Below are positions 2,051 to 44,488 of a stretch of DNA of 58,405 nt, in pieces. The position numbers were made by a program, and so were the translations under genes. Position 1 is the stretch's first letter, and each line of letters starts with the position of its first letter. The stretch lies in assembly GCF_000620065.1 (NCBI RefSeq), contig NZ_JHVI01000025.1, positions 1 through 58,405 of the forward strand, given 5' to 3'. Origin of the DNA: Meiothermus cerbereus DSM 11376. Its GTDB lineage: Bacteria; Deinococcota; Deinococci; Deinococcales; Thermaceae. The notes under the pieces were generated by a model. That model made no database searches and was not told where the DNA came from. It saw only the letters and a program-made list of their open reading frames with translations.

Positions 2051-3619
2051 ATGTTTTCTAGTCTGACCCGACCCATCCCCAAACCCCTGCTGGCAGTGGC
2101 CTGGCTGGTGGGTTCGGCGGTGGTGTTGCCGATGCTGTACCTGGTGCTGCGGGCCGCCGAAGCCGAGCCCCACCAGCTCGCCGAGATTGTGTTGCGGGAG
2201 CGCAATCTACAGTTGCTTGGCAACACACTGGCGCTACTGGTGGGGGTGATTGCCCTTACGACGGCGCTGGCCCTCCCGCTGGCCTGGATTACCAGCCGCA
2301 CCGACCTGCGGGGCAAGCGCTTTTGGACAGTTTTGCTGGTGCTGCCGCTGGCAGTGCCTGGATATGTGGGGGTGTTTGGGTTCTTTGGGGCCGCCGGGGC
2401 CAGCGGCTGGCTGGAAAGCTTGCTGGGCTTTCCCTGGCCCCGGCCCACGGGCTACCTGGGGGCCTTAGGGGTGCTGACCCTTTTTACCTACCCGTACCTG
2501 TTTTTGAACCTGCGGGCCGCACTCTTGGGGCTGGATGTGGGCCTCGAGGAGTCCGCCCGCAGCCTGGGCTACAGGGGCCTCGAGGTCTTCTGGCGGGTGG
2601 TGTTGCCCCAGCTCCGGCCCGCCCTGTATGCCGGCTGGCTCCTCATCGGGCTGCACGTGCTGGGCGACTTTGGGGTAGTCAGCCTGGTGCGCTTCGAAAC
2701 CTTCAGCTATGCCATCTATCTGCAATACTCGGCCTCCTTCGACCGGATATATGCCGCCTGGCTCTCGCTGATGCTGATTGGGCTAACCGGAAGCCTGCTC
2801 TGGCTCGAGGCCCGCCTGCTCAAGAACCTCTCCCTGAGCCGGGTAGGGCTTGGTAGCGCAAGGCGACCCCAACCGGCCAGGCTGGGGGCCTGGCGGTTGC
2901 CCGCAATAGCCCTGATGGGGGTGCCCATTGTGGGGGCTCTGGTGGTACCGCTCACCTCCATTGTGTACTGGCTGGCACAGTACCCCGGCACCTATGTGAA
3001 TGGCTTGGGTGGCATCCTGGAAGCCTTGCGAAACTCGGTTCAGGCCGCTGCCCCCGCAGCCATGCTGGCCACCTGTTTGGCCCTGCCCCTGGCCTACCTG
3101 GGGGTGCGCTACCCCAGCAGGCTCGCGAGGCTTCTCGAGCGCACCGCCTACATCGGCTACGCCACACCCCCGCTGGCCTTTGCCCTGGCCCTCATTTTCT
3201 TCAGTCTGCGCGGGATGCCCTTCCTTTACCAGACCCTGGCCCTGCTAATTCTGGCCTATGCGCTGCACTTCCTGGCCGAGGCCATCGGCCCCATCCGCAG
3301 CGCGCTCTACCAGGCCCCACCCCGGCTCGAGGAGGCCGCCCGCAGCCTGGGCTATAAACCCCTGCAGGCCTTCCTGAAAGCCACCTTCCCCCTGCTCAGG
3401 CGGGGCATGCTAGCCAGCATGGCCCTGGTGTTTTTGTCGGCGGTAAAGGAACTTCCCCTCACCTTCTTGCTGGCTCCGGTGGGGTATTCTACGCTTTCGA
3501 CACGCATCTGGGGCTACACCTCGGAAGCCATGTTTGCCGAAGCGGCCCCCTATGCCCTCCTGATCGTGCTATTCTCGGCTGGATTGGTGGGCTTACTACT
3601 CTCCCAGGAACGACGATGA
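2051..3619 (+). CDS. Fused two-domain ABC permease, Fe3+ (FbpB/SfuB) type
   Basis: This 522-residue integral membrane protein has about twelve hydrophobic segments in two homologous halves. Each half carries an EAA loop for contacting the ATPase: EESARSLGYRGLEVFWRVVL near residue 165 and EEAARSLGYKPLQAFLKATF near 430. That fused layout is typical of ferric iron, thiamine and similar importers. It overlaps the ATPase gene by 4 bp (ATGA), so the two are translationally coupled. No periplasmic binding protein gene lies nearby. Fe3+ is the likeliest substrate, but thiamine or another small ligand is possible. The start ATG has no clear ribosome-binding site. Confidence 0.85.
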   Translation: MFSSLTRPIPKPLLAVAWLVGSAVVLPMLYLVLRAAEAEPHQLAEIVLRERNLQLLGNTLALLVGVIALTTALALPLAWITSRTDLRGKRFWTVLLVLPLAVPGYVGVFGFFGAAGASGWLESLLGFPWPRPTGYLGALGVLTLFTYPYLFLNLRAALLGLDVGLEESARSLGYRGLEVFWRVVLPQLRPALYAGWLLIGLHVLGDFGVVSLVRFETFSYAIYLQYSASFDRIYAAWLSLMLIGLTGSLLWLEARLLKNLSLSRVGLGSARRPQPARLGAWRLPAIALMGVPIVGALVVPLTSIVYWLAQYPGTYVNGLGGILEALRNSVQAAAPAAMLATCLALPLAYLGVRYPSRLARLLERTAYIGYATPPLAFALALIFFSLRGMPFLYQTLALLILAYALHFLAEAIGPIRSALYQAPPRLEEAARSLGYKPLQAFLKATFPLLRRGMLASMALVFLSAVKELPLTFLLAPVGYSTLSTRIWGYTSEAMFAEAAPYALLIVLFSAGLVGLLLSQERR

Positions 3620-4707
3620 AAACTCAAAGCGCCGAACGCCCTTCCACCGAGGCCCTGGCCCGCGCCCCTATCCTGCAAGTGCAGGGCCTGACCAAGCGCT
3701 TCCACCCCGATTTCCCTCCTGTGGTACAGGCGGTGAGTTTTGCGGTGGATCAAGGCGAGGTGTTTGCCCTCCTGGGGCCCTCGGGCTGCGGGAAAACCAC
3801 CACCCTGCGTCTGATTGCCGGCTTTGAGCAACCCGACAGCGGTCAGATCTGGTTGGACGGCCGGGAAATCACCCGCCACCCCCCAGAACAGCGCGGCATC
3901 GGCTTTGTTTTCCAGGACTATGCGCTGTTTCCCCATCTGAGTGTGTTCGAGAACGTGGCCTTCGGTCTGCGCCACCTGCGGGGAAAAGAGCGGCAGGCGC
4001 GTGTGATGGAGGTGCTGGGCCTGGTTGGTCTGACTGTTTTCAAAGACCGCAAGCCCGGCGAGCTTTCGGGGGGGCAGCAGCAGCGGGTAGCCCTGGCCCG
4101 CGCCATTGCCCCCGGCCCCAAGCTGGTGCTGCTCGATGAGCCCTTTAGTAGCCTGGACGCCGCCCTGCGCCAGTCCACCCGCGACGAGGTGCGGACGCTG
4201 CTAAAGCAGTCGGGCATAGGGGCTATTCTGGTCACCCACGACCAGGAAGAGGCCCTCTCCTTTGCCGACCGGCTGGCCGTGATGCGGAGTGGGCAGCTCG
4301 AGCAAGTGGGCACCCCGGAGGAGGTTTATCATCGCCCCCGTACCCCCTTCGTGGCCCAGTTTCTGGGCCGCACCAACCTGATCCCCGGCGAAGCCCGGGG
4401 CCTCGAGGCCGAAACGCCCCTGGGACGCATAATGCTCTTTGAGGAGGCCCACGGCGCGGTGCTGCTCTCCTTGCGCCCCGAAGGTCTGGGCCTGGCCGTC
4501 CCCTTAGGACACCTGGGCATAGACGGAAAGCAGCTCGAGGGTACTGTGCTCGCCCGCGAGTTTAAAGGCCACGACATGACCTACCGCATCCAGCTTGGCA
4601 ACCGCGAGCTAATTGTGCAGGAAAGCCCGGAAAGCCCCTTTTACCCAGGCGACAAGGTGCGGGTACTGGTGCGGGCCAAAGCGGTGGTGGTGGGGCGGGG
4701 CAGGTAA
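3616..4707 (+). CDS. ABC transporter ATPase, FbpC/PotA type
   Basis: This 363-residue protein powers the permease encoded just upstream. Walker A is GPSGCGKTTTLRL near residue 57, the signature is LSGGQQQRVALARAI near 153, and Walker B is LVLLDEP, followed by the switch His in VTHDQEEA. The C-terminal third (from about 240) has the beta-rich OB/TOBE-type fold of the iron, spermidine and thiamine importer ATPases. Start and stop fit the coupled operon. The substrate is inferred from the permease type only. Confidence 0.88.
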   Translation: MKTQSAERPSTEALARAPILQVQGLTKRFHPDFPPVVQAVSFAVDQGEVFALLGPSGCGKTTTLRLIAGFEQPDSGQIWLDGREITRHPPEQRGIGFVFQDYALFPHLSVFENVAFGLRHLRGKERQARVMEVLGLVGLTVFKDRKPGELSGGQQQRVALARAIAPGPKLVLLDEPFSSLDAALRQSTRDEVRTLLKQSGIGAILVTHDQEEALSFADRLAVMRSGQLEQVGTPEEVYHRPRTPFVAQFLGRTNLIPGEARGLEAETPLGRIMLFEEAHGAVLLSLRPEGLGLAVPLGHLGIDGKQLEGTVLAREFKGHDMTYRIQLGNRELIVQESPESPFYPGDKVRVLVRAKAVVVGRGR

Positions 4708-4740
4708 CCCCCAGCCAAAGCATGCTGTCTGTTCTGGGGG

Positions 4741-4810
4741 ACGATCCCTTTCAGGACTCGCTGGCGCTCGTGCACCCGTGGGACGATCCTTTTCAGGACT
4801 CGCTGGCGCT
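4741..4810. repeat. Two-copy tandem direct repeat, period 42 bp
   Basis: A 28-bp unit beginning ACGATCC and ending CTGGCGCT occurs at 4741-4768 and again at 4783-4810 with one mismatch. The copies lie between the ABC ATPase stop and truA. If read in the truA frame they would give DDPFQDSLAL twice, but this part is unlikely to be translated. Confidence 0.85.
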
Positions 4811-4847
4811 ACAGGCAATTGTTTTCCCCCAGGCAACCACAGGTAAA

Positions 4848-5651
4848 ATGTCAATCGCCTTGGAAGACCTCGAGCCAGCCCAAAACAAAAATCTGAGGCG
4901 CATTCTGCTCACCCTCGAGTACGACGGCACCAATTTTGCAGGCCTGCAAACCCAGGCCCAGGGCGAGCGCACGGTGCAGCAGGAGCTCGAGGCCGCCCTC
5001 AGCAAAATTCCTGGCGCAAGACCCAAAATCTGGCCCTGTGGCCGCACCGACGCGGGGGTGCATGCCATAGCCATGCCAGTACATTACGATACCGAAGACA
5101 GCATCCCCACCGAAAAAATCCCCTATGCCCTGAATAGTCTGCTGCCTCCGGATATTCGGGCCATCGCTGCCGAGGAGGTCGCACCGGACTTTCACGCCCG
5201 CAAAAGCTGCCACTGGCGTGAGTACCGCTACCGCATCCTGCAACGCCGGATGCCCCCTGCCCTGGATCGCCACCGGGTGTGGTGGATTCCACAGTCGCTC
5301 AACCTGATCCCCATGCGCCATGCGCTGGAGCACCTGGTGGGCACACACGATTTTCGGGCTTTTGCCGTAAAGGAGGAGCGCAGCACCATCCGGCAAATCT
5401 ACCGTACCCACCTGGAAGTGTGGCCTGCCGAGGGTGGGCGGGAAATTTGGCTCGAGTTCGTGGGGTCTGGCTTTCTGCGCGGCCAGGTACGCAGCATGGT
5501 GGGCACCCTGGTAGAGGTCGGTCTGGGCAAGCGCAACTCCGGTTCCATTCTGGCTCTGCTCGAGGGCGGCACCCGCAAGGATGCAGGCGCTACCGCTCCC
5601 GCCCATGGCCTCTACTTTGTGCGCGCGGGCTACCAGCCCTACCGCCAGTAG
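4848..5651 (+). CDS. truA: tRNA pseudouridine(38-40) synthase TruA
   Basis: This 267-residue enzyme converts uridines 38-40 of the tRNA anticodon arm to pseudouridine. The catalytic Asp lies in CGRTDAGVHA, the TruA signature, and RGQVRSMVGTLVEVG near the C terminus is also diagnostic. The frame is open further upstream to 4722, but that stretch is the 42-bp tandem repeat. I therefore place the start at ATG 4848, which gives the normal family length. The last 13 bp overlap the 3' end of the convergent gene at 5639. Confidence 0.93.
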   Translation: MSIALEDLEPAQNKNLRRILLTLEYDGTNFAGLQTQAQGERTVQQELEAALSKIPGARPKIWPCGRTDAGVHAIAMPVHYDTEDSIPTEKIPYALNSLLPPDIRAIAAEEVAPDFHARKSCHWREYRYRILQRRMPPALDRHRVWWIPQSLNLIPMRHALEHLVGTHDFRAFAVKEERSTIRQIYRTHLEVWPAEGGREIWLEFVGSGFLRGQVRSMVGTLVEVGLGKRNSGSILALLEGGTRKDAGATAPAHGLYFVRAGYQPYRQ

Positions 5652-6628
5652 AGCTGCACGTACACCCGTACCGCCTCCACCGGGGCCCTGGAGAGGTCTA
5701 CACCCAAGCGCAACCCATCGTTCCAGCTATAGGCCGCCCCAATCAGCAGTTTACGCGGCTCTTGCAGCCAGGCCTGAAACCGATCCTCGGGCAGAAAAGG
5801 GCTGTTCTCACCCAGGTAGTCCCAATCCGGGTTCCACCACAAGAGCGCTTCGAAACGGCCTTTATCCAGGGCCTCCACCCAGGCTTGGGTCTCACTATCG
5901 CAGGGACACTGCAACATAAAAGCCAGGGCCTGCCCCAGCGGGAGGGGCAAGGAAGCTGTACTCCAAAAGCCCCGATCCCGCTGCCAAAAGAGCCCCACCT
6001 CTCGACCCTGTAACCCCATCCGGGGAATAAGGCTCAGGGAGGACTCTGGTTCCCCCAGGCCACTTGGCATCTGCACAATTTCTACGAACGTGCCTAGTTG
6101 GAAAATTCCAGCGCTGGCCCCCACAAAACCCTGACCCCCCACAAGCCCGGCATGGGGCAGGTAGGCCATTTCCAGGCTAAGCCACGGAATTTCGCTGGGG
6201 CCATACCGGGCAAACACCCCCCAGCGTCCGTCCCGTCCCATCAGGGTATCGTCCCAGGGGCCGCTGTAATCATGGCGCTTCCCCAGGCTCAGAACAAAAT
6301 CCCCCAAATCGGTTTCGGCGACAGCCTCTAGGAGACCAAACTGCACCGCCGAATCGTACCAAAGGCCCAGGTCGGCTCGAGCCCTTACCCCTTCCCAGCG
6401 GGTTTGGGCCTGCAGCCTTCCACCCAAAGCCAACCCCCACTCCAGCGATGCAGACGGGCCTGGAGCCCCGTTGTACCCCAAAGAAAACTGCACTATCCCT
6501 GAGGGTTGCAGACATAGCACCTTTTCCTCTGGAACTACACAGTCCCATGAAACCCGAAACGTAGAGTCGTTCTGGGCAAAAACAAGCTGCGAAATAGCCA
6601 AAAAACTTGCCAGCAACGCAATCCGCAT
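5639..6628 (-). CDS. Secreted protein of unknown function, probably beta-rich
   Basis: I do not recognise this 329-residue protein. It starts with a signal peptide (MRIALLASFLAISQLVFAQ) that is predicted to be cleaved after FAQ. The rest alternates short hydrophobic and polar strands rich in Gly, Trp and Tyr and ends in VYVQLYWR. This resembles an outer-envelope beta protein, which is an inference. The frame extends upstream, but ATG 6628 is chosen because it begins the signal peptide and lies 6 nt after TATTGT. Its stop overlaps that of truA by 13 bp. Confidence 0.7.
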   Translation of the reverse strand: MRIALLASFLAISQLVFAQNDSTFRVSWDCVVPEEKVLCLQPSGIVQFSLGYNGAPGPSASLEWGLALGGRLQAQTRWEGVRARADLGLWYDSAVQFGLLEAVAETDLGDFVLSLGKRHDYSGPWDDTLMGRDGRWGVFARYGPSEIPWLSLEMAYLPHAGLVGGQGFVGASAGIFQLGTFVEIVQMPSGLGEPESSLSLIPRMGLQGREVGLFWQRDRGFWSTASLPLPLGQALAFMLQCPCDSETQAWVEALDKGRFEALLWWNPDWDYLGENSPFLPEDRFQAWLQEPRKLLIGAAYSWNDGLRLGVDLSRAPVEAVRVYVQLYWR

Positions 6629-6634
6629 TCCTCT

Positions 6635-6640
6635 ACAATA
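6635..6640 (-). promoter_or_regulatory. -10 box TATTGT, 6 nt before the start (leaderless type)
   Basis: TATTGT on the minus strand is separated by AGAGGA from ATG 6628. AGAGGA could alternatively act as a ribosome-binding site. Confidence 0.45.
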
Positions 6641-6798
6641 CAGCCTCCTCGACCCAAACTCAGGCCGAAATCCACACACCCATCGGATCGGGTTGGTACA
6701 AGACCGCCAGCCCCACAACGCACCGCGGTTCTTGCAAATACTCGGAACTAATTACCCAGTACCGCAAAACGCCGCACTGGGTATTCGTAGGAACCATC

Positions 6799-6922
6799 AT
6801 AAGAAATGTCTTTGCTTCGTCCTTTTTGCTGGGGCCCCCACCTGAAGCTGTGCCAGGAGCTGCCCTTGCATCTGGCCGGCTTTGACCTGCCCTAAACAGA
6901 AAGCTTCAGGTGGGGTTCATAT
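6799..6922 (+). repeat. Hairpin repeat family 1, copy A
   Basis: The element starts ATAAGAAATGTCTTTG, runs through CTTTTTGCTGGGG, and ends AGCTTCAGGTGGGGTTCATAT. Inner arms CCCCACCTGAAGCT (6836-6849) and AGCTTCAGGTGGGG (6902-6915) are perfect inverted repeats. It sits 14 bp past the dppC stop codon and accounts for most of the 308-bp gap 6629-6936. The remaining part, 6641-6798, shows nothing I can name. Confidence 0.85.
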
Positions 6923-6936
6923 CAGAACTGGCCGGT

Positions 6937-8154
6937 TTACAACCTGCTGCGCGGGTCGAGCGCATCCCGCAGGCCGTCGCCCAGGTAGTTGAAGGCCAGC
7001 ACCGTCAGGAAAATCATGAAGCCCGGGGCCAGGGCCAGCCAGGGCGCGGTAAAGATGTACTCCTGGGCCTTGGTGAGCATGTTGCCCCAGGTGGCCACCG
7101 GCGGCTGGATGCCAAAGCCCAAAAACGAGAGGGCGGCCTCGGTCAGAATGGCCCCACCAATGGCCAGGGTGGCGTTCACAATCAGGGGTGCCAGGGTATT
7201 GGGCACCAGGTGGCGGAACATGATGCGGGCATCCCCAGCTCCCAGGGCCTGGGCTGCGGTGGTGAAATCCTGTTCGCGCAAGCTCAGCACCGCTCCACGA
7301 ATCAACCGACCCGTTCCGATCCAGCCAAACAGCACGATGATGGTGATGATAATGAAAACCGAAGCCGACTCCCCAAACACGCTCTGGGCCCACTGCCCCA
7401 CCGCTCCCTGGGTGTCTCGCAGTAGCGCCGAGAGCACCAGCAGCAGGGGCAGCTCAGGGATGGTCAGCATAAAGTCCATAAAGCGCGAGATAACCACGTC
7501 CAGGTCAATCTTGCCTTGACCAAAAAGACCCCATCCCGCAATGAATAAAATCAGGCCCCACACCAGCGCCAAGCCCAGCAACGAAAGCACGTTGTTAAGG
7601 GTGAGGGTACCCGAGAAGAGCGCCTGTATATTGGCACCGGACAGCTCCCAGGCTAGGTCGGCGGCCAGGAAAAGCAGCCCGTACAGCAGCACCCACGACA
7701 CCACACGCCACAGCGCAAAAGGCCAGGGTTTCCAGCCGCCCGCCACTTTTGCGAAAGGGCCCACATAAAAACGAAGGGGCCGGCCCGAGAAGTAGCCGGC
7801 GAGAACCCCCAGGGTAGTTCCCAGCAAAGCCGCAGCAAAGGCGGCCACAAAGCCTACCAGCAGCGATATGCGTGCGCCGTAGATGATGCGCGATAGCACA
7901 TCCCGGCCTAGCTCGTCGGTGCCCAGCCAGTGCTCCCGGGTCGGGCCCAGGAAGTAGTAGTCAGCTAGGTTCTCGCCCGTAGGCTGGGCGGTGGGGCTGT
8001 AGGGGGCAATCCAGGGGGCGAAAATAGCCATCAAGATCAAAGTAATCACCACCCCCAGCGAAACCATTGCCGCCTTGTGCTTGCGGAACCGGCGCCAGGC
8101 CAGCGCCCAGGTAGACTGGGGTTTTTGTTTAGAAGCAGTTGCAACAGCAGCCAT
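6937..8154 (-). CDS. dppC: Peptide/nickel-type ABC permease DppC with a large internal insertion
   Basis: This inner-membrane permease of an oligopeptide-type importer has 405 residues, about 110 more than usual. The N-terminal part has HWLGTDELGRDVLSRIIYG, typical of DppC. The C-terminal part has the EAA loop (AAQALGAGDARIMFRHLVPN) and LSFLGFGIQPP. Between them, residues about 125-217 form an insertion with two extra hydrophobic stretches (about 150-166 and 188-207). Family proteins normally pass directly from AGYxxG to the DxxxxRxxD helix. The gene starts 8 bp after the dppB stop codon. No ATPase genes follow. Confidence 0.9.
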   Translation of the reverse strand: MAAVATASKQKPQSTWALAWRRFRKHKAAMVSLGVVITLILMAIFAPWIAPYSPTAQPTGENLADYYFLGPTREHWLGTDELGRDVLSRIIYGARISLLVGFVAAFAAALLGTTLGVLAGYFSGRPLRFYVGPFAKVAGGWKPWPFALWRVVSWVLLYGLLFLAADLAWELSGANIQALFSGTLTLNNVLSLLGLALVWGLILFIAGWGLFGQGKIDLDVVISRFMDFMLTIPELPLLLVLSALLRDTQGAVGQWAQSVFGESASVFIIITIIVLFGWIGTGRLIRGAVLSLREQDFTTAAQALGAGDARIMFRHLVPNTLAPLIVNATLAIGGAILTEAALSFLGFGIQPPVATWGNMLTKAQEYIFTAPWLALAPGFMIFLTVLAFNYLGDGLRDALDPRSRL

Positions 8155-8162
8155 AAAGCCCC

Positions 8163-9173
8163 CTAACTATAGCGGATGCGGGGATCCACCACCGCATACA
8201 TCAAGTCGGCCAACAGGTTGAAGGTAGCCGTGAGCAAGGCCAGAAAAGCCAGTGCCGCCATCGCTACGTTGTAGTCTTTTTCGACCAGGGAGTCGAAAAT
8301 GGCCCGCCCCATGCCGGGGTAGGAGAAGATGGTCTCGGTAATCACCGCTCCACCAAACACCCCGGGAATCGCCAGACCCACCAGCGTGACGATGGGGATC
8401 AGCGCGTTGCGCAAGGCGTGTTTGTAGAGCACGATGCGCTCGCTCAGACCTTTGGCCCTGGCGGTGCGCACATAGTCCTGGTTCAGAACCTCGAGCAAAC
8501 TGGCCCGCATGTAGCGTGTCCAGGAGGCCATCTGGATGGTCGAGAGGGCCAGCACCGGCAACACCAGCTTAAAAGCCCAGTCCCCAATGAACTGGAAGAA
8601 GGTGATCTCGCCGCTGAGCACCTGCGACCACTGGAAGTCGGAAATGCTCTGCACAGGGAACTTGGGGAACCAGGGTACCCGCTCGGGCAACCACACCGCG
8701 AACACGAACAAGAGCAAGATTCCCAGGAAGAAAATAGGCATGGAAAAGCCCACGAACGAGAAGAAGGTGATCACGTAGTCGGCCCGGCTATACTGGCGCA
8801 CCGCCGAAAAGATGCCCACCGGAATGGCCACCAGCAAGGCCAGGGTCAGGGCTGCACCCGACAGGATGAGCGTGCGGGGCAGGCGCTGGCCAAAGATAAT
8901 TTGTCCGGCTGGCGAAGCATAGGTACGGGACTGGCCAAAGTCGCCCTGGATAGCCCGCCCAAGCCACTTGAAATAGCGCACATACACGGGCTGATCCAGA
9001 CCGTAGGCCCGGCGCAGCTGCTCCAGCTGCTCGGCAGTAATCCGGGGGTTTTGCTGGCGTAGTTCGTCCAGCGGGTCTCCAGGTTGCAGGGCCAACAAAG
9101 TAAAAATCACAACGGAGGCTGCAAACAGCAAGGGAATCATTTGCAGCAGTCGGCGAACCGTGTAAGCAAACAC
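8163..9173 (-). CDS. dppB: Peptide/nickel-type ABC permease DppB
   Basis: This 336-residue permease has six membrane segments. It begins FAYTVRRLLQMIPLLFAASV and has the EAA loop VRTARAKGLSERIVLYKHAL near residue 215 and ends with DLMYAVVDPRIRYS, all typical of DppB. It pairs with the DppC downstream. The start is GTG at 9173, because a -10 box TATTAT lies exactly 7 nt upstream and no ribosome-binding site is visible, so a leaderless transcript is likely. A 12-bp palindrome lies just upstream. Confidence 0.93.
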   Translation of the reverse strand: MFAYTVRRLLQMIPLLFAASVVIFTLLALQPGDPLDELRQQNPRITAEQLEQLRRAYGLDQPVYVRYFKWLGRAIQGDFGQSRTYASPAGQIIFGQRLPRTLILSGAALTLALLVAIPVGIFSAVRQYSRADYVITFFSFVGFSMPIFFLGILLLFVFAVWLPERVPWFPKFPVQSISDFQWSQVLSGEITFFQFIGDWAFKLVLPVLALSTIQMASWTRYMRASLLEVLNQDYVRTARAKGLSERIVLYKHALRNALIPIVTLVGLAIPGVFGGAVITETIFSYPGMGRAIFDSLVEKDYNVAMAALAFLALLTATFNLLADLMYAVVDPRIRYS

Positions 9174-9180
9174 GCCCTAC

Positions 9181-9186
9181 ATAATA
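9181..9186 (-). promoter_or_regulatory. -10 box TATTAT of dppB, leaderless type
   Basis: TATTAT is followed by 7 nt and then the GTG start of dppB. The adjacent palindrome CTTGTCGACAAG (9189-9200) lies where a repressor would block polymerase. Confidence 0.55.
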
Positions 9187-9188
9187 CC

Positions 9189-9200
9189 TTGTCGACAAGC
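9189..9200. promoter_or_regulatory. 12-bp palindrome CTTGTCGACAAG in the dppB promoter
   Basis: The palindrome is perfect and lies 2 bp upstream of the -10 box. It is an operator candidate; the regulator is unknown. Confidence 0.35.
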
Positions 9201-9310
9201 CTTTTGTATGCGTACCCCGGTATTCAAAAACCTACCCAACCCCTCAAGAGTCAAGCGAGATAGGCATTTTTCTGTTTACAGAAAGCATTTATTACACCCT
9301 TTGGTTTACC

Positions 9311-9330
9311 CATCCACCAATTGGTGGATG
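9311..9330. promoter_or_regulatory. 20-bp perfect palindrome CATCCACCAATTGGTGGATG
   Basis: It lies between the first binding-protein gene and dppB. A near-identical palindrome occurs at 13576-13599 upstream of the second binding-protein gene. Two copies in one transport cluster suggest a shared operator. Confidence 0.5.
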
Positions 9331-9344
9331 CTTATCGCCATTGG

Positions 9345-9370
9345 CAAAAAAAGCCTCCCTGACGGGAGGC
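9345..9370 (-). terminator. Intrinsic terminator after the first binding-protein gene
   Basis: On the minus strand GCCTCCC pairs with GGGAGGC around a 4-nt loop and is followed by a run of T. It lies 25 bp past the stop codon and should uncouple the binding-protein gene from dppB. Confidence 0.85.
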
Positions 9371-9394
9371 ATTCAGAGAGCACAACAAACGGCG

Positions 9395-11242
9395 TTACTT
9401 GATGGGTTGGCCGTACTTGGCCTGGTCGTAAACCTTTTGTGCGCCCCTGGATTGCCAGCCAATTAACCACGGTTCAATGGTGGGGTAAGCCGAGTTGGCA
9501 AAGGTAGAAGAAACGTAGTTCAACAAACCCACCCGGAAAACCCGCGCATCAGACTGGAAGTACAGGGGGATCATGGCAACTTCGTCAGCCCAGATCTCCT
9601 GCATGCGGGCAAAGAGCTGCTTGCGGCGGTTGACATCAAACTCGAGCACCGCCTGGTTGCGCAGACGGTCATACTCCTCGTTGCACCAGCCCCCAAAGTT
9701 GAGCCCGCGGAAGCCGTTTTCCCGGGTGGGCACGTACACCACCTTGCCCTCCTCATCCCGGCAGGCCGAGCGCACCCCATCGTCGGCCTGGCCCATGCTA
9801 AAAGCAAAGTGCAGGAAGCCCGTCCAGGTACCCTCCTGGGCCCTGGCCCGGTACTGCGCCCCGAGCACCACCGCGCTGGGGGCATTGTTGATGCGAACCG
9901 CAATCCCCACCTGACGGTAGTTCTCGGCCACAAACTGCTGGATGCGCTCACGCACCTGGTTGCCCGCGGTGGTGGCCCACTCAATCTCAAAGCGCACGGT
10001 ACGCCCATCTACGGTGCGTTGCAAAATGCCGTCCGGGCCAGGCCGCCAACCCAGTTCGGCCAGCAGTTGACGGGCCCGCTCGGGGTTGTAAGGGTACTTG
10101 GTGACATTTGGGTTAAACATGGGGTTCTTGGGAGAAACCCATGTGTGAGCCACCGTATAGAGCCCGTCAAAGAAGGCCTTGGTGATGCCCTCACGGTTCA
10201 TGGCATAAATCAGGGCCTGGCGGGTCTTGACGTTATCAAGCATCAGATCGCGCACTCGCTGCACATTGGCAAACTGGTTAATCTCCAGGTGCTCGAAGAA
10301 TGGGGTTTCTACTGCCCATATCTCGAAGCGTCCTGGCGCACGGCTGGTGAGTTGCTTGCTACGCCCCTGGTCGAAGGTTATGGAGACGCTCGAGGCTGCG
10401 TCAATCCCACCCCCCAGAATGGCTACCAAGAGCGAGTTGGTGTTCTGGATGATGCGGTAGACCACCCGCTGCACGTATTTTTCTTCGCCCCCCGGGGGTT
10501 TGATCCAGAAGCGGGGGTTGCGCTGCATCTCGATGGTGCTGCCCGGTACCCAGCGGGTCAGGGTAAAGGGGCCCGAATATACCATCCGTCCGCTGTTCAG
10601 GAACTGAGGGGTAGAAAACTGGGTAAAGAAGTTGCGGAAAATTTCAGCCTGTCGCGCGGTATCGTTGGTCTGGGCAGCCGCAGCTTTGGCCTTGTCCCAC
10701 TCCGCGCGCATGATGTGGTTGGGGGCGTAGTACACCTGGTTGATGTCCAGGTCGTAGAAGTAGGCTGGTTCCAGGCTTACCGTGAAGTTGCGGGCATCCC
10801 GTACCCGCAGGGTAGCCCGGTCGAAAAAGTCGATGGCGGTCGAGGGCACCCCTTTGGTTTTGCCCATCTCGAAGAACAGGGCCACGTCCTCGGTGCTGAT
10901 GGGCCGCCCGTCCGACCAGACCGCATCGGGCCGGATGGTGTAATCGAGCTCGAGGCGACGCACCCCCGGGCGCACCGTGGTAAAGCGCAGGCGGTTGTTC
11001 TGGGTTGTGGGCACCTCTGTCACCACCACCGGAATTACATTGAGGTCGCGGGTGGTCTGCACGATGGGGGCAAACAAAAAGTTTTCGATCTCAAACTTGA
11101 TGGACTGGTTGGAGATGGCATTGACCACGTCCCCTGCCAGGGCCCGTGGCTCCTGGGCCGCCCCAATAATCAGGCTGTTGTCCTGGGGGCCAGCCAGGGC
11201 CAATCCACCCAGTAGCATCCAGGCCATGAGCATTCGTTTCAT
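9395..11242 (-). CDS. Periplasmic peptide-binding protein, SBP family 5 (paralog 1)
   Basis: This 615-residue secreted solute-binding protein would deliver substrate to the DppBC permease. It opens with a signal peptide (MKRMLMAWMLLGGLALA). The family 5 features follow: ENFLFAPIV, LDYTIRPDAVWSDGRPIS, and a long C-terminal lobe. ATG 11242 is chosen over an earlier in-frame ATG because it starts the signal peptide and follows GAGGAGG. It is clearly paralogous to the next gene upstream (shared DNSLIIG, QEPR, ISNQSIK, PGPDGILQRTVDGRTVRFE). The substrate is unknown; its long insertions fit large peptides. Confidence 0.9.
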   Translation of the reverse strand: MKRMLMAWMLLGGLALAGPQDNSLIIGAAQEPRALAGDVVNAISNQSIKFEIENFLFAPIVQTTRDLNVIPVVVTEVPTTQNNRLRFTTVRPGVRRLELDYTIRPDAVWSDGRPISTEDVALFFEMGKTKGVPSTAIDFFDRATLRVRDARNFTVSLEPAYFYDLDINQVYYAPNHIMRAEWDKAKAAAAQTNDTARQAEIFRNFFTQFSTPQFLNSGRMVYSGPFTLTRWVPGSTIEMQRNPRFWIKPPGGEEKYVQRVVYRIIQNTNSLLVAILGGGIDAASSVSITFDQGRSKQLTSRAPGRFEIWAVETPFFEHLEINQFANVQRVRDLMLDNVKTRQALIYAMNREGITKAFFDGLYTVAHTWVSPKNPMFNPNVTKYPYNPERARQLLAELGWRPGPDGILQRTVDGRTVRFEIEWATTAGNQVRERIQQFVAENYRQVGIAVRINNAPSAVVLGAQYRARAQEGTWTGFLHFAFSMGQADDGVRSACRDEEGKVVYVPTRENGFRGLNFGGWCNEEYDRLRNQAVLEFDVNRRKQLFARMQEIWADEVAMIPLYFQSDARVFRVGLLNYVSSTFANSAYPTIEPWLIGWQSRGAQKVYDQAKYGQPIK

Positions 11243-38416: not shown

Positions 38417-39608
38417 CCCAGTACCCGAACTGATCGAAGAGTTGCGCGTGGGTCGGCCAATTATCCTGGTCGACGACGAAGACCGGGAGAACGAGGGCGA
38501 CCTGGTGATGGCCGCCGAGCACATGAGCACCGAGTGGATGGCCTTCATCATCCGTCACACCGGCGGGGTGGTCTGCCTGGCGATGAGCGAGGAATGGGCC
38601 GACCGGCTGGATCTGCCCCCCATGGTCAAGGACAACACCGCGCCCCGCAGCACTGCTTTCACCGTCTCCATCGAAGCCCGTGAAGGGGTGACCACCGGCA
38701 TCTCGGCCGCCGACCGGGCCACCACAGTGCGCCTGGCGGCCCGCCCAGAGGCCACCGCTGCCGACTTCGTGCGCCCTGGTCACATCTTCCCCTTGCGGGC
38801 TCAGAAAGGTGGTGTGCTGCGCCGGGCCGGCCATACCGAGGCCAGCGTGGACCTCTGCCGCCTGGCCGGGCTCAACCCGGTGGCCGCCATCAGCGAGCTG
38901 ATGCACGATGACGGCTCCATGATGCGCCTGCCGGCCATCCTGGCCTTCGCCCAGCAGCACGGCCTGAAGGTGGGCACCATCGCCGAGCTGATCCGCTACC
39001 GCCTCGAGCTAGGCGACGGCTACGTGCGCCGCGAGGCCGAGGCCAGCCTGCCCACCCGCTTTGGCACCTTCCGCGTGGTGGGGTACCGGGATACCCTCGC
39101 CCAAGGGGAACATGCCGCGCTGGTGATGGGCGACCTGACCGGGGATACGCCGGTGCTGGTGCGGGTGCACTCGGAATGCCTGACCGGCGACAGCCTGCAC
39201 AGCCTGCGCTGCGACTGCGGTTTTCAGCGCGACCTGGCTTTGCAGCAGATCGCCCAGGAAGGGCGCGGCGTGCTGGTCTACCTGCGCCAGGAAGGGCGCG
39301 GTATCGGCCTCATCAACAAGCTAAAGGCCTACGCCCTGCAAGACCAGGGGCTGGACACCGTGGAGGCCAACCTGGCCCTGGGCTTTCCCCCCGATCTGCG
39401 CGACTATGGGGTGGGGGCCCAGATTCTGCGCGACCTGGGCATCCGCCGGATGCGCCTGCTCACCAACAACCCCCGCAAGGTGCGGGCTTTGGAGGGTTTT
39501 GGCCTCGAGATCGTCGAACGGTTGCCGCTCAAGGGTGGTGACAACCCACACAACCAGCGCTACCTGCTCACCAAGCGGGAGCGGCTGGGGCACTGGCTTG
39601 AAGACTAG
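38409..39608 (+). CDS. ribBA: Bifunctional DHBP synthase/GTP cyclohydrolase II RibBA
   Basis: This 399-residue fusion makes both precursors of lumazine. The RibB half (about 1-200) has DDEDRENEGDLVMAAEHM and RHTGGVVCLAM. The RibA half has the zinc site CLTGDSLHSLRCDCGFQ, then LRQEGRGIGLINKLKAY and LTNNPRKV. All catalytic motifs appear intact in both halves. Its GTP substrate comes from the adjacent purine pathway. Confidence 0.97.
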   Translation: MLSPVPELIEELRVGRPIILVDDEDRENEGDLVMAAEHMSTEWMAFIIRHTGGVVCLAMSEEWADRLDLPPMVKDNTAPRSTAFTVSIEAREGVTTGISAADRATTVRLAARPEATAADFVRPGHIFPLRAQKGGVLRRAGHTEASVDLCRLAGLNPVAAISELMHDDGSMMRLPAILAFAQQHGLKVGTIAELIRYRLELGDGYVRREAEASLPTRFGTFRVVGYRDTLAQGEHAALVMGDLTGDTPVLVRVHSECLTGDSLHSLRCDCGFQRDLALQQIAQEGRGVLVYLRQEGRGIGLINKLKAYALQDQGLDTVEANLALGFPPDLRDYGVGAQILRDLGIRRMRLLTNNPRKVRALEGFGLEIVERLPLKGGDNPHNQRYLLTKRERLGHWLED

Positions 39609-39639
39609 AAAAAGACCGGGCGAGGGTTTCGCCCGGTCT
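39609..39639 (-). terminator. Terminator between ribBA and the convergent ferritin-like gene
   Basis: AGACCGGGCGA and TCGCCCGGTCT form a perfect 11-bp stem with a 5-nt loop. The T run is on the minus strand, serving the gene at 39696. On the plus strand it lies next to the ribBA stop codon. Confidence 0.85.
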
Positions 39640-39695
39640 GCTGGCCTGGAGCCCTTTTGCTGGGGCTTTTCACCCGCTCGAGGGTGCAATAAAGC

Positions 39696-40589
39696 TCAGG
39701 TGGTCTTGATCGGGCCGTTGAGCCCCATCGGGAAGAAGCCACCCATGCTTACGTTGGCGCTGCCGTTGAGGTAGACGATTTTGAGCACCTCGCTGGTGGT
39801 GCGCCCAAAGGCCACCGCGTTGGCATCGGCGACCACCAGGTTGGCCTTGCCCATCTTGGTAATGCCCTCATCCTTACCGCCGCCCACGCTGGCGCGCAGG
39901 TTGCTGATGGCGTCTACCACCTGCTCCACGGTGAGGCTTGGGGTAACCATCATGTTCTTGCGATCGTACAGCAGCAGCCGGATGACCCCAGCGTGGTAGG
40001 CCTCCACCGCCAGAATTCCCGCGGCTGGATCCAGGACGTTGTTCTTGTCGGTGATGAGCCTGGCTGCGCCCTTGTAGGCGGTGACGCCCACATCCTCAAA
40101 AATAAAAGCCCCGTGAATGAAGAAGAGCTCGTTTGCGAAGGGGTTGAAATTGGTGATGGCCCCGCCGCTGGCGGCACTCCCGGCAGCCCGGAAGGCCTGG
40201 TCGAGGTCAATAACCGGACGATTGACCGCAGCCGACCCCAGGGCCTGGCGAAGGAATTTCACATGGGCCAGCTCGTCCTCGGCAATTTCCTGGGCATATT
40301 GGAGCACGTCCGGGCTCAGGCCGGGAATCGGGCTGGTTCCATCGAAGCCTGAAGGCAGGCGGATTTCGGCACTGCCGCCGATGGTCTTGATCTCGTTGAT
40401 GCGCCCCACCGCGGCCAGGTAAAAGGCGGCCTCGAGGTACTCCAGATTGAGGGCAAAGTTGAGGATGGCCACATCCTGGTTGGGGCCCTGGCTCATACCA
40501 GGGGTGGTGGCACAAGCACCCATCACACCCCCCAAGACCAAACCAGTACCCATCACACCGGTCTGCTTCAGCATCTCCCTGCGGTTCAT
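39696..40589 (-). CDS. Exported ferritin-like protein, probable Tat lipoprotein
   Basis: This 297-residue protein has an N-terminal Tat-type signal (NRREMLKQTG, then a hydrophobic stretch and the lipobox-like VMGACATT). The mature part is a ferritin-like four-helix domain of the Ferritin_2/dessication-related type: NLEYLEAAFYLAAVG, AEDELAHVKFLRQALG, HGAFIFEDVGVTAYKG and GILAVEAYHAGVIRLLLY. These supply Glu and His for a di-iron site. ATG 40589 follows GGAGGT; a longer frame starts inside a repeat. It may oxidise iron or detoxify peroxide outside the membrane, which is an inference. Confidence 0.83.
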   Translation of the reverse strand: MNRREMLKQTGVMGTGLVLGGVMGACATTPGMSQGPNQDVAILNFALNLEYLEAAFYLAAVGRINEIKTIGGSAEIRLPSGFDGTSPIPGLSPDVLQYAQEIAEDELAHVKFLRQALGSAAVNRPVIDLDQAFRAAGSAASGGAITNFNPFANELFFIHGAFIFEDVGVTAYKGAARLITDKNNVLDPAAGILAVEAYHAGVIRLLLYDRKNMMVTPSLTVEQVVDAISNLRASVGGGKDEGITKMGKANLVVADANAVAFGRTTSEVLKIVYLNGSANVSMGGFFPMGLNGPIKTT

Positions 40590-40600
40590 ATCTACCTCCA

Positions 40601-40703
40601 GAAATGTCCTTGATTGGTGCTTTGCCTTGGGGCGCCCACCTGAAGCGCGCCAAGAGTCGGTTTTGATCTGCACTAAACAGAAAGCTTCAGGTGGGGTTTA
40701 TTT
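40601..40703 (+). repeat. Hairpin repeat family 1, copy F
   Basis: GAAATGTCCTTGATTGGTGC, CCCACCTGAAGC and AAACAGAAAGCTTCAGGTGG match the family, with a shortened centre. It contains the stop codon and last few codons of the CHRD gene. Confidence 0.78.
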
Positions 40704-41196
40704 GAATCTGCCCACGTAGCTCGCCCGCCCGGAAAGCTGCGGTATGAATGTCGAAGTAAAGCTCTCCCCGGTACAGGCGGTTCAGGTCGTCCAGGCTTAG
40801 CTCGAGCCGATCCATAAAGGTAGCGCTTCGACCATCGGGTGCGCTCATCACCTTGAGCGCCTGCAGCAAGGGGCCGTTTTGTCCCTTGGCCCCTCGGTGC
40901 AGGTGAACGGCGCTGGTCAGGCGGGCGTTCAGGGCGGGGTCGTCCACCGGATCGCGGGTGTAGTCGCGGAAAGGACCCGCCAGGTTGGCCACCGCGCCCT
41001 GGATGCTCAGGCTGGAACCCATGAGCTCGAGGCGCACCACCGCCAGGGCCGACGTGTTGACCGGGTTCGGCACCACCTCAGCCCCATTCAGGAGCACGGC
41101 CCGCACAAAGCCGCCCATCCCCTGGGCCTGTACACCCCCCAGGCCCAGCACGGCCAGGCTGGCCCCCATGCCACCTAGAAACAAGCGACGCCGCAT
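40687..41196 (-). CDS. Exported CHRD-domain protein
   Basis: This 169-residue protein starts with a Tat-like signal (MRRRLFLGGMGASLAVLGLGGVQAQ). The remainder is one CHRD domain: a beta-rich fold with AVLLNGAEVVPNP, SAVHLHRGAKGQNGP, and LYFDIHTAAFRAGELRGQI at its end. CHRD domains occur in chordin and in many bacterial secreted proteins, where their role is unknown. It starts 12 bp after the upstream ferritin-like gene. Its last residues (NPT) and stop codon come from a family 1 repeat. Confidence 0.82.
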   Translation of the reverse strand: MRRRLFLGGMGASLAVLGLGGVQAQGMGGFVRAVLLNGAEVVPNPVNTSALAVVRLELMGSSLSIQGAVANLAGPFRDYTRDPVDDPALNARLTSAVHLHRGAKGQNGPLLQALKVMSAPDGRSATFMDRLELSLDDLNRLYRGELYFDIHTAAFRAGELRGQIQINPT

Positions 41197-41208
41197 CTCA
41201 AATCACCT

Positions 41209-41841
41209 TTACTTGCGGACAAAACCTTGCACAGCCTGGGTAGCCTGCTGAGGGGTGATGGCGACGGCAAAGGCCCGACCCACCGGGGTCTGGGTGCCTT
41301 CTACCCGCCCACCCAGGCTCAGCACCGAGTCGCGCAGGATGGCCAGGTGGGCTTCCTCGTTCATGGCGATGCTGGCCGCTGCCGAGAGCACGGCTTTGTT
41401 TTGAATCAGGGGGATGGCCCCCAGATAGGCCCCGGTAAAGGCGGTCTCGAGGGCCACCAGGGTCTCCAGCACCTTGAGCCGGTTGGCGGTGTTGAACTGC
41501 AGGTCGCCGTAGGCAAACTGTGGGCGGGCCACCGGCATGGCATTGAAGGGCCCCCGGATGGTATCGGTCAGGGCCTTGACGTGCGCTTCCTCGTGCTTCA
41601 GGGCCTCGGACAGGTAGTCCCGAATCTCACCCGGAAAGTTCACCGTCAGGGCCCGGGTGTAGGCGTCGGTAGCCAGGTACTCGGCGGTCAGGGCCAGGTT
41701 GAGCACGTCCAGATCGCTCACGCCCTGCGACTGGGCCAAGGCCTGTCCTACCAGGCTGTGAGCCAGGGCCGTGGAGAGACCGGCGGCGGTCAAGACCTTA
41801 ACGAACTTCCTGCGGGCCAGGTTTTGGGGTTGCTTTTCCAT
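41209..41841 (-). CDS. Exported ferritin-like protein, Ferritin_2 type
   Basis: This 210-residue protein has a Tat signal (ARRKFVKVLTAAGLSTALAH) cleaved near ALAQ. The mature part is a ferritin-like helix bundle, with LALTAEYLATDAYTRAL, LKHEEAHVKALTD, VALETAFTGAYLGA and AMNEEAHLAILRDSV. Repeated EE/EAH motifs could form a di-iron site. It is followed closely by the CHRD gene and a second ferritin-like gene, forming a three-gene export unit. The start ATG follows GGAGGTG. Confidence 0.85.
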   Translation of the reverse strand: MEKQPQNLARRKFVKVLTAAGLSTALAHSLVGQALAQSQGVSDLDVLNLALTAEYLATDAYTRALTVNFPGEIRDYLSEALKHEEAHVKALTDTIRGPFNAMPVARPQFAYGDLQFNTANRLKVLETLVALETAFTGAYLGAIPLIQNKAVLSAAASIAMNEEAHLAILRDSVLSLGGRVEGTQTPVGRAFAVAITPQQATQAVQGFVRK

Positions 41842-41918
41842 TTTGCACCTCCAACCTGCTGTTCGCAGCCGGAGGGGTGTTTGGATTAACAGGCCAAACC
41901 AGCGGCTTTGTACCCCAT

Positions 41919-42132
41919 GCCAGATTCGGTTCTTTCGTTACCGGATGGTGGCGAACGAACCCGACCAAAGTTATCCGCGTAGCGGAGGACAATACCGCCC
42001 CTGGGAAGGGATGCGCTCTCTTCGCCGAGGGCAGCAAGGGGTGTGCTCTAGTTCGACAAGCTCAGCAACCGCAGGATTCAAAAAGATAGCCCCTTGGGAT
42101 TTTTTTGTTTGAGGACCATCCTTTTGAATCCG
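41919..42132 (-). repeat. Hairpin repeat family 2, copy 2 (longer form)
   Basis: Read on the minus strand it begins GGATTCAAAAGGAT, has the partner arm ATCTTTTTGAATCC, continues AGAGCACACCCCTTG, CTCGGCGAAGA, and ends CCGAATCTGG like copy 1. It has about 60 bp more in the centre. It occupies most of the 357-bp gap 41842-42198 between the anti-sigma gene and the ferritin-like gene; nothing else is seen there. Confidence 0.78.
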
Positions 42133-42198
42133 GCAAGAATCGGCATTTCGGCAACCTTCCTCATAAGGTCGCCCAGGGAAATCGAATATCAGCAGCCC

Positions 42199-42816
42199 CT
42201 ACTGGGGTAGACCCAGCAGGGTGGTGGGCTGACGGCTTCCACCCGGGGGCTCGAGCGAGACCGCCAGGGCTTCTGCTTCCAGGGGAAGGCGCAGGCTCTT
42301 AAGCGGGGTACGGAAGGTGGGCAGGGGGGTGGGGCTTCCCTGAACCAGTCCCCAGGCCTGGAAAACCTGACCCCGGGGGGGCCAGCGGTCGAGCAGGACC
42401 AGGGCCAGCTTATCCCCGCGCTGGATGACCCGTCCGACCACCTCGCCTTTAGGGCTGGCCAGGGCGACCACCCGGGTCTGGGGGTCACGCAGCGAAAGCA
42501 ACCAGAAAGCACTCCACCCCCCGCTGTAGCCCAGCCCCAGCAGCAGCAACAGCGCCGCAGCCCGGCTCAGCCAGGCAGGAAGGACAAGGCGCCGGGAAGG
42601 CCGCAGGCGGGCCATGACCTTTTGCTCCAGACCTGGGGGTACTGGGTCTGGGGGAACCAGACCGGCCAGGTCGGCGGCGGTCTCCTGCAGGGCCTTGGCC
42701 TCGGCCCAGAGCTCGGGATAACCCTTGAGGGCGGCCTCGAGCCGCTCCCGCTCCTCGGGCTCTAAAGCCCCCAGGGCATACAAGGGCAGGAGTTCGCGCA
42801 CTTCCTCAGGCTTCAC
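42199..42816 (-). CDS. Anti-sigma factor, RskA-like membrane protein
   Basis: This 205-residue protein has a cytoplasmic N-terminal domain (about 1-75, PEEVRELLPLYALGALEPEE), one transmembrane helix (about 85-105), and an extracytoplasmic RskA-type domain (QTRVVALASPKGEVVGRV, PPRGQVFQAWGL). It should bind and hold the sigma factor encoded just upstream, with which it overlaps by 11 bp. The zinc-binding HxxxCxxC motif of ZAS anti-sigmas is absent, as in RskA. The released signal is unknown. Confidence 0.88.
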   Translation of the reverse strand: MKPEEVRELLPLYALGALEPEERERLEAALKGYPELWAEAKALQETAADLAGLVPPDPVPPGLEQKVMARLRPSRRLVLPAWLSRAAALLLLLGLGYSGGWSAFWLLSLRDPQTRVVALASPKGEVVGRVIQRGDKLALVLLDRWPPRGQVFQAWGLVQGSPTPLPTFRTPLKSLRLPLEAEALAVSLEPPGGSRQPTTLLGLPQ

Positions 42817-43360
42817 GTAGCTCCTCCTTTAGGCGGGAAAGCGCTCGGCGAGCCCGGGTCTTAAGGGTGCCGAGGGGAATGTCGAGCTTGCGGGCGGCCT
42901 CCTGGTGGGCATAGCCCTGGAAAAATAGCACCTCGATGACCTCCCGCTCCTCGGGCTCCAGGCGAGCCAGCGCCTGACGAAGCCGGATGCGGTCCAGATG
43001 ATGCTCCTCGTCGAGTCCGGGGCCGGGAAGGTCGAAGGCCTCGGGCTCATCCTCCGTGGGTTCCAGGGCTTGCGGGCGGGCCTCCAGACGGCGCAGCTGA
43101 TCGACCGTGGTGTGATGGGCAATCGCCAGCAACCAGGCCCGGGCCGAGGCCCTCTTGGGGTCAAACTCCCGGGCATTCCTCCAGATTTTGCTAAAAACTT
43201 CCTGCACCACGTCCTCTCGACTGGCCGAGTCAAGGCCCATGCGCCGGGCCAGGCCCAGAAAAGCCCCCGCATAGCGCCGGAAAATCTGCTGCAAGGCGGC
43301 TTCCTCTCCTTTGGCCGCCAAAGCCAGCAACGCTTCATCGGAGAAGGCCTCGAGGCTCAT
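42806..43360 (-). CDS. ECF sigma factor, SigK-like
   Basis: This 184-residue sigma factor has region 2 (DVVQEVFSKIWRNAREFDP, ARAWLLAIAHHTTVDQLRR) and region 4 (LEPEEREVIEVLFFQGYAHQ, AARKLDIPLGTLKTRARRAL), without region 3. It is paired with an RskA-like anti-sigma. The genes just downstream, past a repeat, encode exported ferritin-like and CHRD proteins. They are candidate regulon members, which is inferred from position. Confidence 0.92.
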   Translation of the reverse strand: MSLEAFSDEALLALAAKGEEAALQQIFRRYAGAFLGLARRMGLDSASREDVVQEVFSKIWRNAREFDPKRASARAWLLAIAHHTTVDQLRRLEARPQALEPTEDEPEAFDLPGPGLDEEHHLDRIRLRQALARLEPEEREVIEVLFFQGYAHQEAARKLDIPLGTLKTRARRALSRLKEELREA

Positions 43361-43434
43361 GCTCGGCCTATACTACCATTCGTATTTTGCTAAAGTTTTG
43401 GTTTTCAGCCTGTGCACAAGCCCACCTGGCCTGC

Positions 43435-43440
43435 TATTCT
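43435..43440 (+). promoter_or_regulatory. -10 box TATTCT of trpS, leaderless type
   Basis: TATTCT is followed by ATCCCAT and the GTG start of trpS. Confidence 0.5.
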
Positions 43441-43447
43441 ATCCCAT

Positions 43448-44488
43448 GTGAAGCGTGTTTTTTCCGGCTTTCAACCCACCGGCGACCTGCACATTGGCAA
43501 CTACCTGGGCGCGATGGTCAACTACATCGCCCTGGGTGAGAAGCTGGGGCAGGACGCCATCTACTGCATTGTGGACTACCACGCCCCCACCAACCCGGCG
43601 GCCTACGACAAAGACTTGCTGGCCCAACGCACCTTCGATGCGGCGCTGGTCAACATGGCTGCAGGGCTCGACCCCAGCACGGTTATTCTTTTCGTGCAGT
43701 CACACGTGCCCGAACACACCGAGCTGGCCTGGGTTTTCAGCACCCAGACCCCCTACGGCGACCTGACCCGCATGACCCAGTTCAAGGACAAGGCGGCCAA
43801 GCTCCAATCGGTTCCGGCGGGCCTGCTGATGTACCCGGTACTGATGGCCGCCGACATCCTGCTGTACAAAGCCGATACCGTGCCGGTGGGCGACGACCAG
43901 ATCCAGCACCTGGAGCTCACCCGCGAGATTGCCCGCCGCTGGAACCTGGAGTACGGCGAAACCTTCCCCGAACCCCAGGGCTACCTGAACCCCCATGCCC
44001 CCCGCGTGCCCGGCATCGACGGCAAGGCCAAGATGTCCAAAAGCGTGGGCAACACCATAGGCCTGCTAGAGGACGAGGAAAGCATCTGGGCCAAGATCCG
44101 CACCATGCCCGACGATCCAGCCCGCATCCGGCTCTCCGACCCCGGCGACCCCGAGCGGAGCGTGGTCTTTAAGTTCTTGCAGTATTTCGCCCCGCCCGAG
44201 CTGGTGCAGGTACTCCGAGAAGAGTACCGTCGGCGGGGCATCGGGACGCTGGTAGTCAAGCAGCTCTTAATGCAAGAGATGATGAAAACCTTGAGGCCCA
44301 TCCGCGAGCGCGCCCAGGAGCTGCGAGCCAACCCCGACCAGGTGCTGGGGGCCCTCGAGGACGGGGCGGCCAAAGCCCGCCGCATCGCCCAGGCCACCAT
44401 GGAAGAGGTACGGGACAAGTTTGGGCTGCTCAGGCCCCGCGGGCGTACATCTGCAGTGCAGGTGCAGCCCAAAGTGGCTTCCCAATAG
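43448..44488 (+). CDS. trpS: Tryptophanyl-tRNA synthetase
   Basis: This 346-residue class I synthetase charges tRNA-Trp. The HIGH-type motif is TGDLHIGNYLG and the KMSKS motif is intact in GKAKMSKSVGN. It begins KRVFSGFQPTG as in other TrpRS. The frame opens at 43412, but GTG 43448 is chosen because it begins the conserved domain and lies 7 nt after a -10 box. It is followed 8 bp later by scpA. No T-box leader is seen. Confidence 0.96.
   Translation: MKRVFSGFQPTGDLHIGNYLGAMVNYIALGEKLGQDAIYCIVDYHAPTNPAAYDKDLLAQRTFDAALVNMAAGLDPSTVILFVQSHVPEHTELAWVFSTQTPYGDLTRMTQFKDKAAKLQSVPAGLLMYPVLMAADILLYKADTVPVGDDQIQHLELTREIARRWNLEYGETFPEPQGYLNPHAPRVPGIDGKAKMSKSVGNTIGLLEDEESIWAKIRTMPDDPARIRLSDPGDPERSVVFKFLQYFAPPELVQVLREEYRRRGIGTLVVKQLLMQEMMKTLRPIRERAQELRANPDQVLGALEDGAAKARRIAQATMEEVRDKFGLLRPRGRTSAVQVQPKVASQ

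Follow-up and report, generated by a model that had tools for sequence, protein, structure and literature searches.

The described regulator closest to the locus considered here is sigma-E of Thermus thermophilus HB8, an extracytoplasmic function (ECF) sigma factor encoded together with its anti-sigma factor (genes TTHB211 and TTHB212), whose promoters follow the consensus CA(A/T)(A/C)C(A/C)-N15-CCGTAA. The locus itself lies in a stretch of 58,405 nt from Meiothermus cerbereus DSM 11376 (contig NZ_JHVI01000025.1), hereafter the window, where five genes on the minus strand encode an ECF sigma factor, an anti-sigma factor, a ferritin-like protein (fer1), a CHRD-domain protein, and a second ferritin-like protein (fer2). 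The initial annotation had taken these for a SigK-like and RskA-like pair beside exported proteins as its likely targets, possibly an undescribed envelope unit for iron or oxidative defence. We think it quite probable that the locus is the Thermaceae sigma-E envelope-stress switch, together with a local operon that limits oxidative or desiccation damage.

The switch and each of the protein families are already known separately. Anti-sigma-E of T. thermophilus was treated by Sakamoto 2008 (as cited in PMC3084264), and promoters by Shinkai 2007 (as cited in PMC6418473). The ferritin-like family of T. thermophilus and Deinococcus radiodurans was flagged as desiccation-related in 2005 (PMC1274311). 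One member, DRB0118, is required for survival of desiccation, not of radiation (PMC1274311, PMC11616004), and is in vitro a low-activity metabolite phosphatase with damaged nucleotides among its substrates (PMC11616004). To that extent, the locus is not undescribed; what the literature searched did not yield is a connection, at the level of an operon, of sigma-E with Ferritin_2 proteins of the DRB0118 type and a CHRD protein with a superoxide dismutase (SOD) fold, although the study of T. thermophilus promoters from 2007 may already report that of fer1 in HB8.

The sigma factor (42806 to 43360, minus strand, 184 aa) scores 337 bits against the NCBIfam model PRK13919/NF010500, "putative RNA polymerase sigma E", for which the cut-off is 226, and is 67.9% identical to the sigma factor of HB8 (pTT27). 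The anti-sigma gene (42199 to 42816, minus strand) adjoins the sigma gene and overlaps it by 11 nt. Its product scores 255 bits against PRK13920/NF010501, "putative anti-sigmaE" (NCBIfam; cut-off 225), and 55 bits against PF10099 (RskA_C; cut-off 29.4), with a single transmembrane segment by hydropathy, at about residues 77–108. By sequence, then, these are the orthologs of sigma-E and anti-sigma-E of T. thermophilus, with an RskA-type sensor. As in HB8, the orthologous genes overlap and a ferritin-like gene directly follows that of the anti-sigma factor; in addition, the HB8 sites found here fit the consensus given above, the same promoter class as the window motif described below. Unlike HB8, the window has trpS and riboflavin genes as its neighbourhood, with no TTHB210-like or AhpC/TSA neighbour; CHRD and fer2 share one operon with fer1, and the -10 element is CGAA rather than CCGTA.

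The likeness to SigK–RskA of Mycobacterium (ECF18/ECF19) is that of an ECF sigma factor cotranscribed with an RskA_C anti-sigma factor, with exported targets nearby. The label SigK itself must be dropped, as the sigma factor reaches only 128 bits against the SigK model (PRK09646; cut-off 226) and lacks the SigK-type cysteines, while the putative targets are Ferritin_2 and CHRD proteins, not MPT70/83; the RskA half of the label holds. Two conserved cysteines are present in the sigma factors of 94% of ECF18 and 56% of ECF19 (PMC7509140). A zinc anti-sigma (ZAS) protein was also considered and rejected, the HxxxCxxC motif being absent. Because neither the sigma nor the anti-sigma factor contains a single cysteine, thiol or zinc sensing within either is unlikely, and a signal would instead enter through the periplasmic RskA_C domain of the anti-sigma factor.

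Promoter motif and gene order in the Thermaceae

The evidence for regulation includes a shared motif, AWCCAA-N15-CGWA. It stands before fer1 in all 22 Thermaceae loci with a linked or once-rearranged sigma gene (22/22; dinucleotide-shuffle mean 0.01) and ends about 12–50 nt from the fer1 start codon. Before the sigma gene, it is found in 15 of 30 cases in strict form and in 27 of 30 if a one-base change in spacer length is allowed and the -35 element is relaxed (shuffle mean 0.5). None of the 20 internal CHRD or fer2 genes is preceded by it, and a fer2 that heads its own transcript carries it in five cases out of six, including fer2 genes unlinked to sigma in two genomes; it is present before a separate fer2 in a third. 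In the window, the predicted sigma-E promoters are AACCAA-N15-CGAA at 43379 to 43403 (minus strand) for the sigma/anti-sigma transcript, and ATCCAA-N15-CGAA at 41862 to 41886 (minus strand) for the fer1-CHRD-fer2 operon.

M. rufus and M. hypogaeus keep the fer1 operon without the motif before fer1, and a close sigma-E ortholog was not found in either. In genome G038, the sigma gene (contig C1, 522292 to 522756) has an in-frame stop and a damaged -10 element, and no match to the anti-sigma factor was found among its neighbours; the fer1 operon, about 20 kb away (C1, 541999 to 544046), retains an intact motif. Here the sigma-E regulator is apparently being lost.

A genome-wide scan with fixed patterns, not a weight matrix, gave five strict matches in the window genome, against nine for a reversed-pattern control. 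Only those of sigma and fer1 are in promoter position, the other three being inside coding genes, and only these two recur among relatives. Within Thermus, the motif is likewise found at the divergent genes of the TTHB210-like and AhpC/TSA types. The proposal that the adjacent exported genes are targets of the ECF/RskA-type pair is thus strongly supported by the shared putative promoter.

Two further elements lie near the fer1 promoter. The -10 element falls within an imperfect inverted repeat, CCTCC..CTGCGAACAGCAGG..GGAGG (41842 to 41886), that is conserved in several Meiothermus; it may serve as an operator or simply arise from the Shine-Dalgarno sequence. The repeat that had been noticed as separating the two halves of the locus, there called family 2, occupies 41917 to 42135, in the gap between the transcripts and some 31 nt upstream of the -35 element of fer1; it is a real dispersed element with about 40 copies in the genome. 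It has inverted ends, ATACC[AG]GATTC...GAATCCGGTAT, and through internal deletions its copies fall into at least three length classes, which is why we call it MITE-like (miniature inverted-repeat transposable element). A CCATCC...CGAAT site resembling that of Mycobacterium tuberculosis SigK, picked by eye upstream of fer1, was dropped, as it lies inside this repeat.

Conservation was surveyed in 111 Deinococcota genomes. Orthologous sigma genes, with at least 54% identity, are present in all five genera of the Thermaceae. The full order of sigma, anti-sigma, fer1, CHRD, and fer2 is found in eight genomes, the window included, one of the seven relatives having its cluster cut by a contig end. 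Shorter versions occur in further genomes, two of which have fer2 directly upstream of sigma. The cluster of T. oshimai and T. aquaticus consists of sigma, anti-sigma, fer1, and CHRD, with a peroxiredoxin-like gene inserted in T. aquaticus, and in T. thermophilus HB8 and HB27 a single locus combines sigma and anti-sigma with ferritin-like genes. Among Thermus, sigma and an intact fer1 are each found in seven genomes, and these are the same seven (hypergeometric p ~1e-6, to which physical linkage contributes). The set is thus kept together in many Thermaceae, and the motif follows the genes that move.

Several neighbourhoods deserve mention on their own account. The sigma-E locus of HB27 pTT27 (3504 to 10389) includes three Ferritin_2 genes, a CMD-family protein, and a TTHB210-like protein; its AhpC/TSA protein carries at the N-terminus a long extra region that matches nothing in Pfam, and several genes of the locus carry the motif. 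In three other Deinococcota, CHRD is directly downstream of a distantly related ECF/anti-sigma pair, and two of these CHRD proteins have long extra regions flanking the domain. On an Acidobacteria contig, an ECF/anti-sigma pair has a Ferritin_2 gene on its upstream side. In a Deinococcales metagenome-assembled genome (L144, 6572 to 8615), a photolyase/cryptochrome-like gene directly upstream of a fer1 homolog hints at a link to light or UV.

The exported Ferritin_2 and CHRD proteins

All five open reading frames were found on the one strand in the order first described, and Pfam bears out the domain calls (Sigma70_r2/r4, RskA_C, two Ferritin_2, and CHRD); Rfam has no match in 39600 to 43500. 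Fer1 (41209 to 41841, minus strand, 210 aa) and fer2 (39696 to 40589, minus strand, 297 aa, starting at ATG 40589 rather than at the upstream GTG of the longest frame) match PF13668 with 93 and 146.7 bits (cut-off 24.7; E 2.4e-26 and 6.3e-43). Export by the twin-arginine translocation (Tat) pathway, claimed for both, is likely given twin-arginine motifs that are invariant among orthologs (R10-R11-x-F13 in fer1, R3-R4 in fer2), with fer1 scoring 13.2 bits against the generic Tat model TIGR01409, just under its cut-off of 16.7. A lipobox-like cysteine in most fer2 orthologs predicts a lipoprotein.

The residues expected of a di-metal site are invariant in both proteins: E54, E84xxH87, E132, and E162xxH165 in fer1, and E50, E53, E106xxH109, E165, and E196xxH199 in fer2. 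Over 294 aa, fer2 shares 56% identity with a D. radiodurans MP1 protein whose length and residue numbering (E76, E191, G194) match those of DRB0118. Fer2 has in common with DRB0118 and plant PCC13-62 the signal type and the metal ligands, including the EDVG motif of helix 3; unlike fer2, DRB0118 stands alone near insertion sequence (IS) elements, and no ECF gene lies closer to it than 8 kb. Fer1 is shorter and forms a separate subfamily. The best structural match of its model is the tardigrade protein RvFeMP-1 (RvY_06210; VIA Z 20.5, 156 aa, 2.3 A; next rows at most 17), with which it has in common the Ferritin_2 fold and the M1 ligands. It differs in lacking an IgG-like domain, in not conserving Asp135 of helix 3, and in having Glu, within the ExxH of helix 4, instead of Asp162. 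A first identification of this match as the tardigrade Mn-dependent peroxidase was rejected, since the peroxidase is g12777 and RvY_06210 is the phosphatase RvFeMP-1 (PMC11313143, PMC11616004). A search of PDB sequences with the single fer2 or CHRD protein gave no useful match.

The CHRD protein (40687 to 41196, minus strand; Pfam E 2.7e-20) also has a Tat-type signal, with R3-R4 invariant in orthologs. Its model (mean pLDDT, the predicted local distance difference test, 68; most of the barrel >75) resembles Cu,Zn-SOD with VIA Z up to 9.5 over 107 aa at 2.9 A and Foldseek E 0.0095, and all 50 of the structural matches listed are Cu,Zn-SOD or its copper chaperone. By strand order, the invariant H98-x-H100 and H151 lie in strand 4 and at the end of strand 7, places that correspond to H46/H48 and H120 of SOD, so that three of the four copper-ligand histidine positions are occupied. 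The Greek-key barrel of the model is as in Cu,Zn-SOD and chordin CHRD, this arrangement of histidines is as in Cu,Zn-SOD, and the predicted fold agrees with chordin crystal structures (PMC13382577). Unlike Cu,Zn-SOD, the protein has neither loop IV with its bridging histidine nor a zinc site. With this predicted fold and the three conserved histidines, it most likely binds copper.

The role of the operon and its alternatives

We propose the following sequence of events. At rest, the single-pass RskA-type anti-sigma factor would hold sigma-E at the membrane, as in its family. An envelope signal, read by the RskA_C domain, would release sigma-E, which, as the comparative evidence strongly suggests, would then transcribe sigma/anti-sigma and fer1-CHRD-fer2 from the AWCCAA-N15-CGWA promoters. 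The operon products would be folded with metal and then exported by Tat. Outside the membrane, fer1 and fer2 would serve as enzymes with a dinuclear metal centre, their reaction most likely being hydrolysis of damaged phosphorylated metabolites, reduction of peroxide, or both, alongside the probable copper-binding CHRD protein, and the most likely role of the whole is to protect the envelope or periplasmic metabolites from oxidative or desiccation damage.

This function is less certain than the regulation, and several points weigh against the proposal. The genomes are related, so the motif counts are not independent events. Fer2 and CHRD are absent from several genomes with sigma and fer1, which makes the gene set modular. 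The phosphatase activity reported for Ferritin_2 relatives is low. As for CHRD, the loop that holds the bridging histidine is missing, comparison with Sod_Cu by hhalign gives a probability of 0.6%, that is, no sequence link, with no match to PF00080 (Sod_Cu) even at E 10, and no metal is seen in the CHRD of human chordin (PMC13382577).

The last point bears on an alternative that we regard as unlikely, namely that the CHRD and Ferritin_2 proteins have no redox or metal chemistry and serve at the surface in structure or adhesion, like the CHRD repeats of chordin, which have the SOD fold but no metal and act as binding domains, for glycosaminoglycans among others (PMC13382577). Against it, chordin is reported not to conserve the HxH...H set, which all bacterial CHRD domains examined retain, and the ferritin-like metal ligands are invariant.

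An exported iron store or ferroxidase unit, with sigma-E answering iron overload, would also account for the complete di-metal ligands, and iron/hemin ABC (ATP-binding cassette) transporter genes do adjoin the Thermus clusters and DRB0118. It seems quite improbable, as the best structural match of fer1 is a dimeric phosphatase and not a cage ferritin, no iron gene is next to the window cluster, and crystals of a published relative hold Zn/Mg (PMC11616004). Of the two defence roles first suggested, oxidative (or desiccation) defence fits better, and iron storage is unsupported.

A bolder version of our proposal is that the CHRD protein, once exported, works as a copper enzyme in place of periplasmic SodC, with the two Ferritin_2 proteins completing a sigma-E-induced extracytoplasmic antioxidant pathway, in which their part would be peroxide reduction or clean-up of oxidised nucleotides. 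None of the 50 Thermaceae genomes searched has a Sod_Cu match, and the same search finds one in five other Deinococcota. We consider this version decidedly doubtful; if true, copper enzymes with a SOD fold would have a second lineage in the CHRD domains of bacteria in general.

That sigma-E controls itself only, the fer1 operon being a passenger of read-through from the sigma transcript or of a housekeeping promoter, is highly improbable: the genes are adjacent and co-directional, and M. rufus and M. hypogaeus keep the operon without sigma, but fer1 has its own motif at every locus counted, even a moved operon or lone fer2 retains it, and it is gone where sigma is gone.

If the locus is indeed a sigma-E envelope-stress switch with its operon, the Thermaceae sigma-E switch would gain a conserved effector operon, the family of the orphan desiccation protein DRB0118 would be tied to a named regulator, and a CHRD protein with a predicted SOD fold would be placed in the same operon as Ferritin_2 proteins. 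Since T. thermophilus HB27 is genetically tractable and its cluster includes fer1 and fer2, the regulon as well as the roles of these widespread families would be directly testable there.

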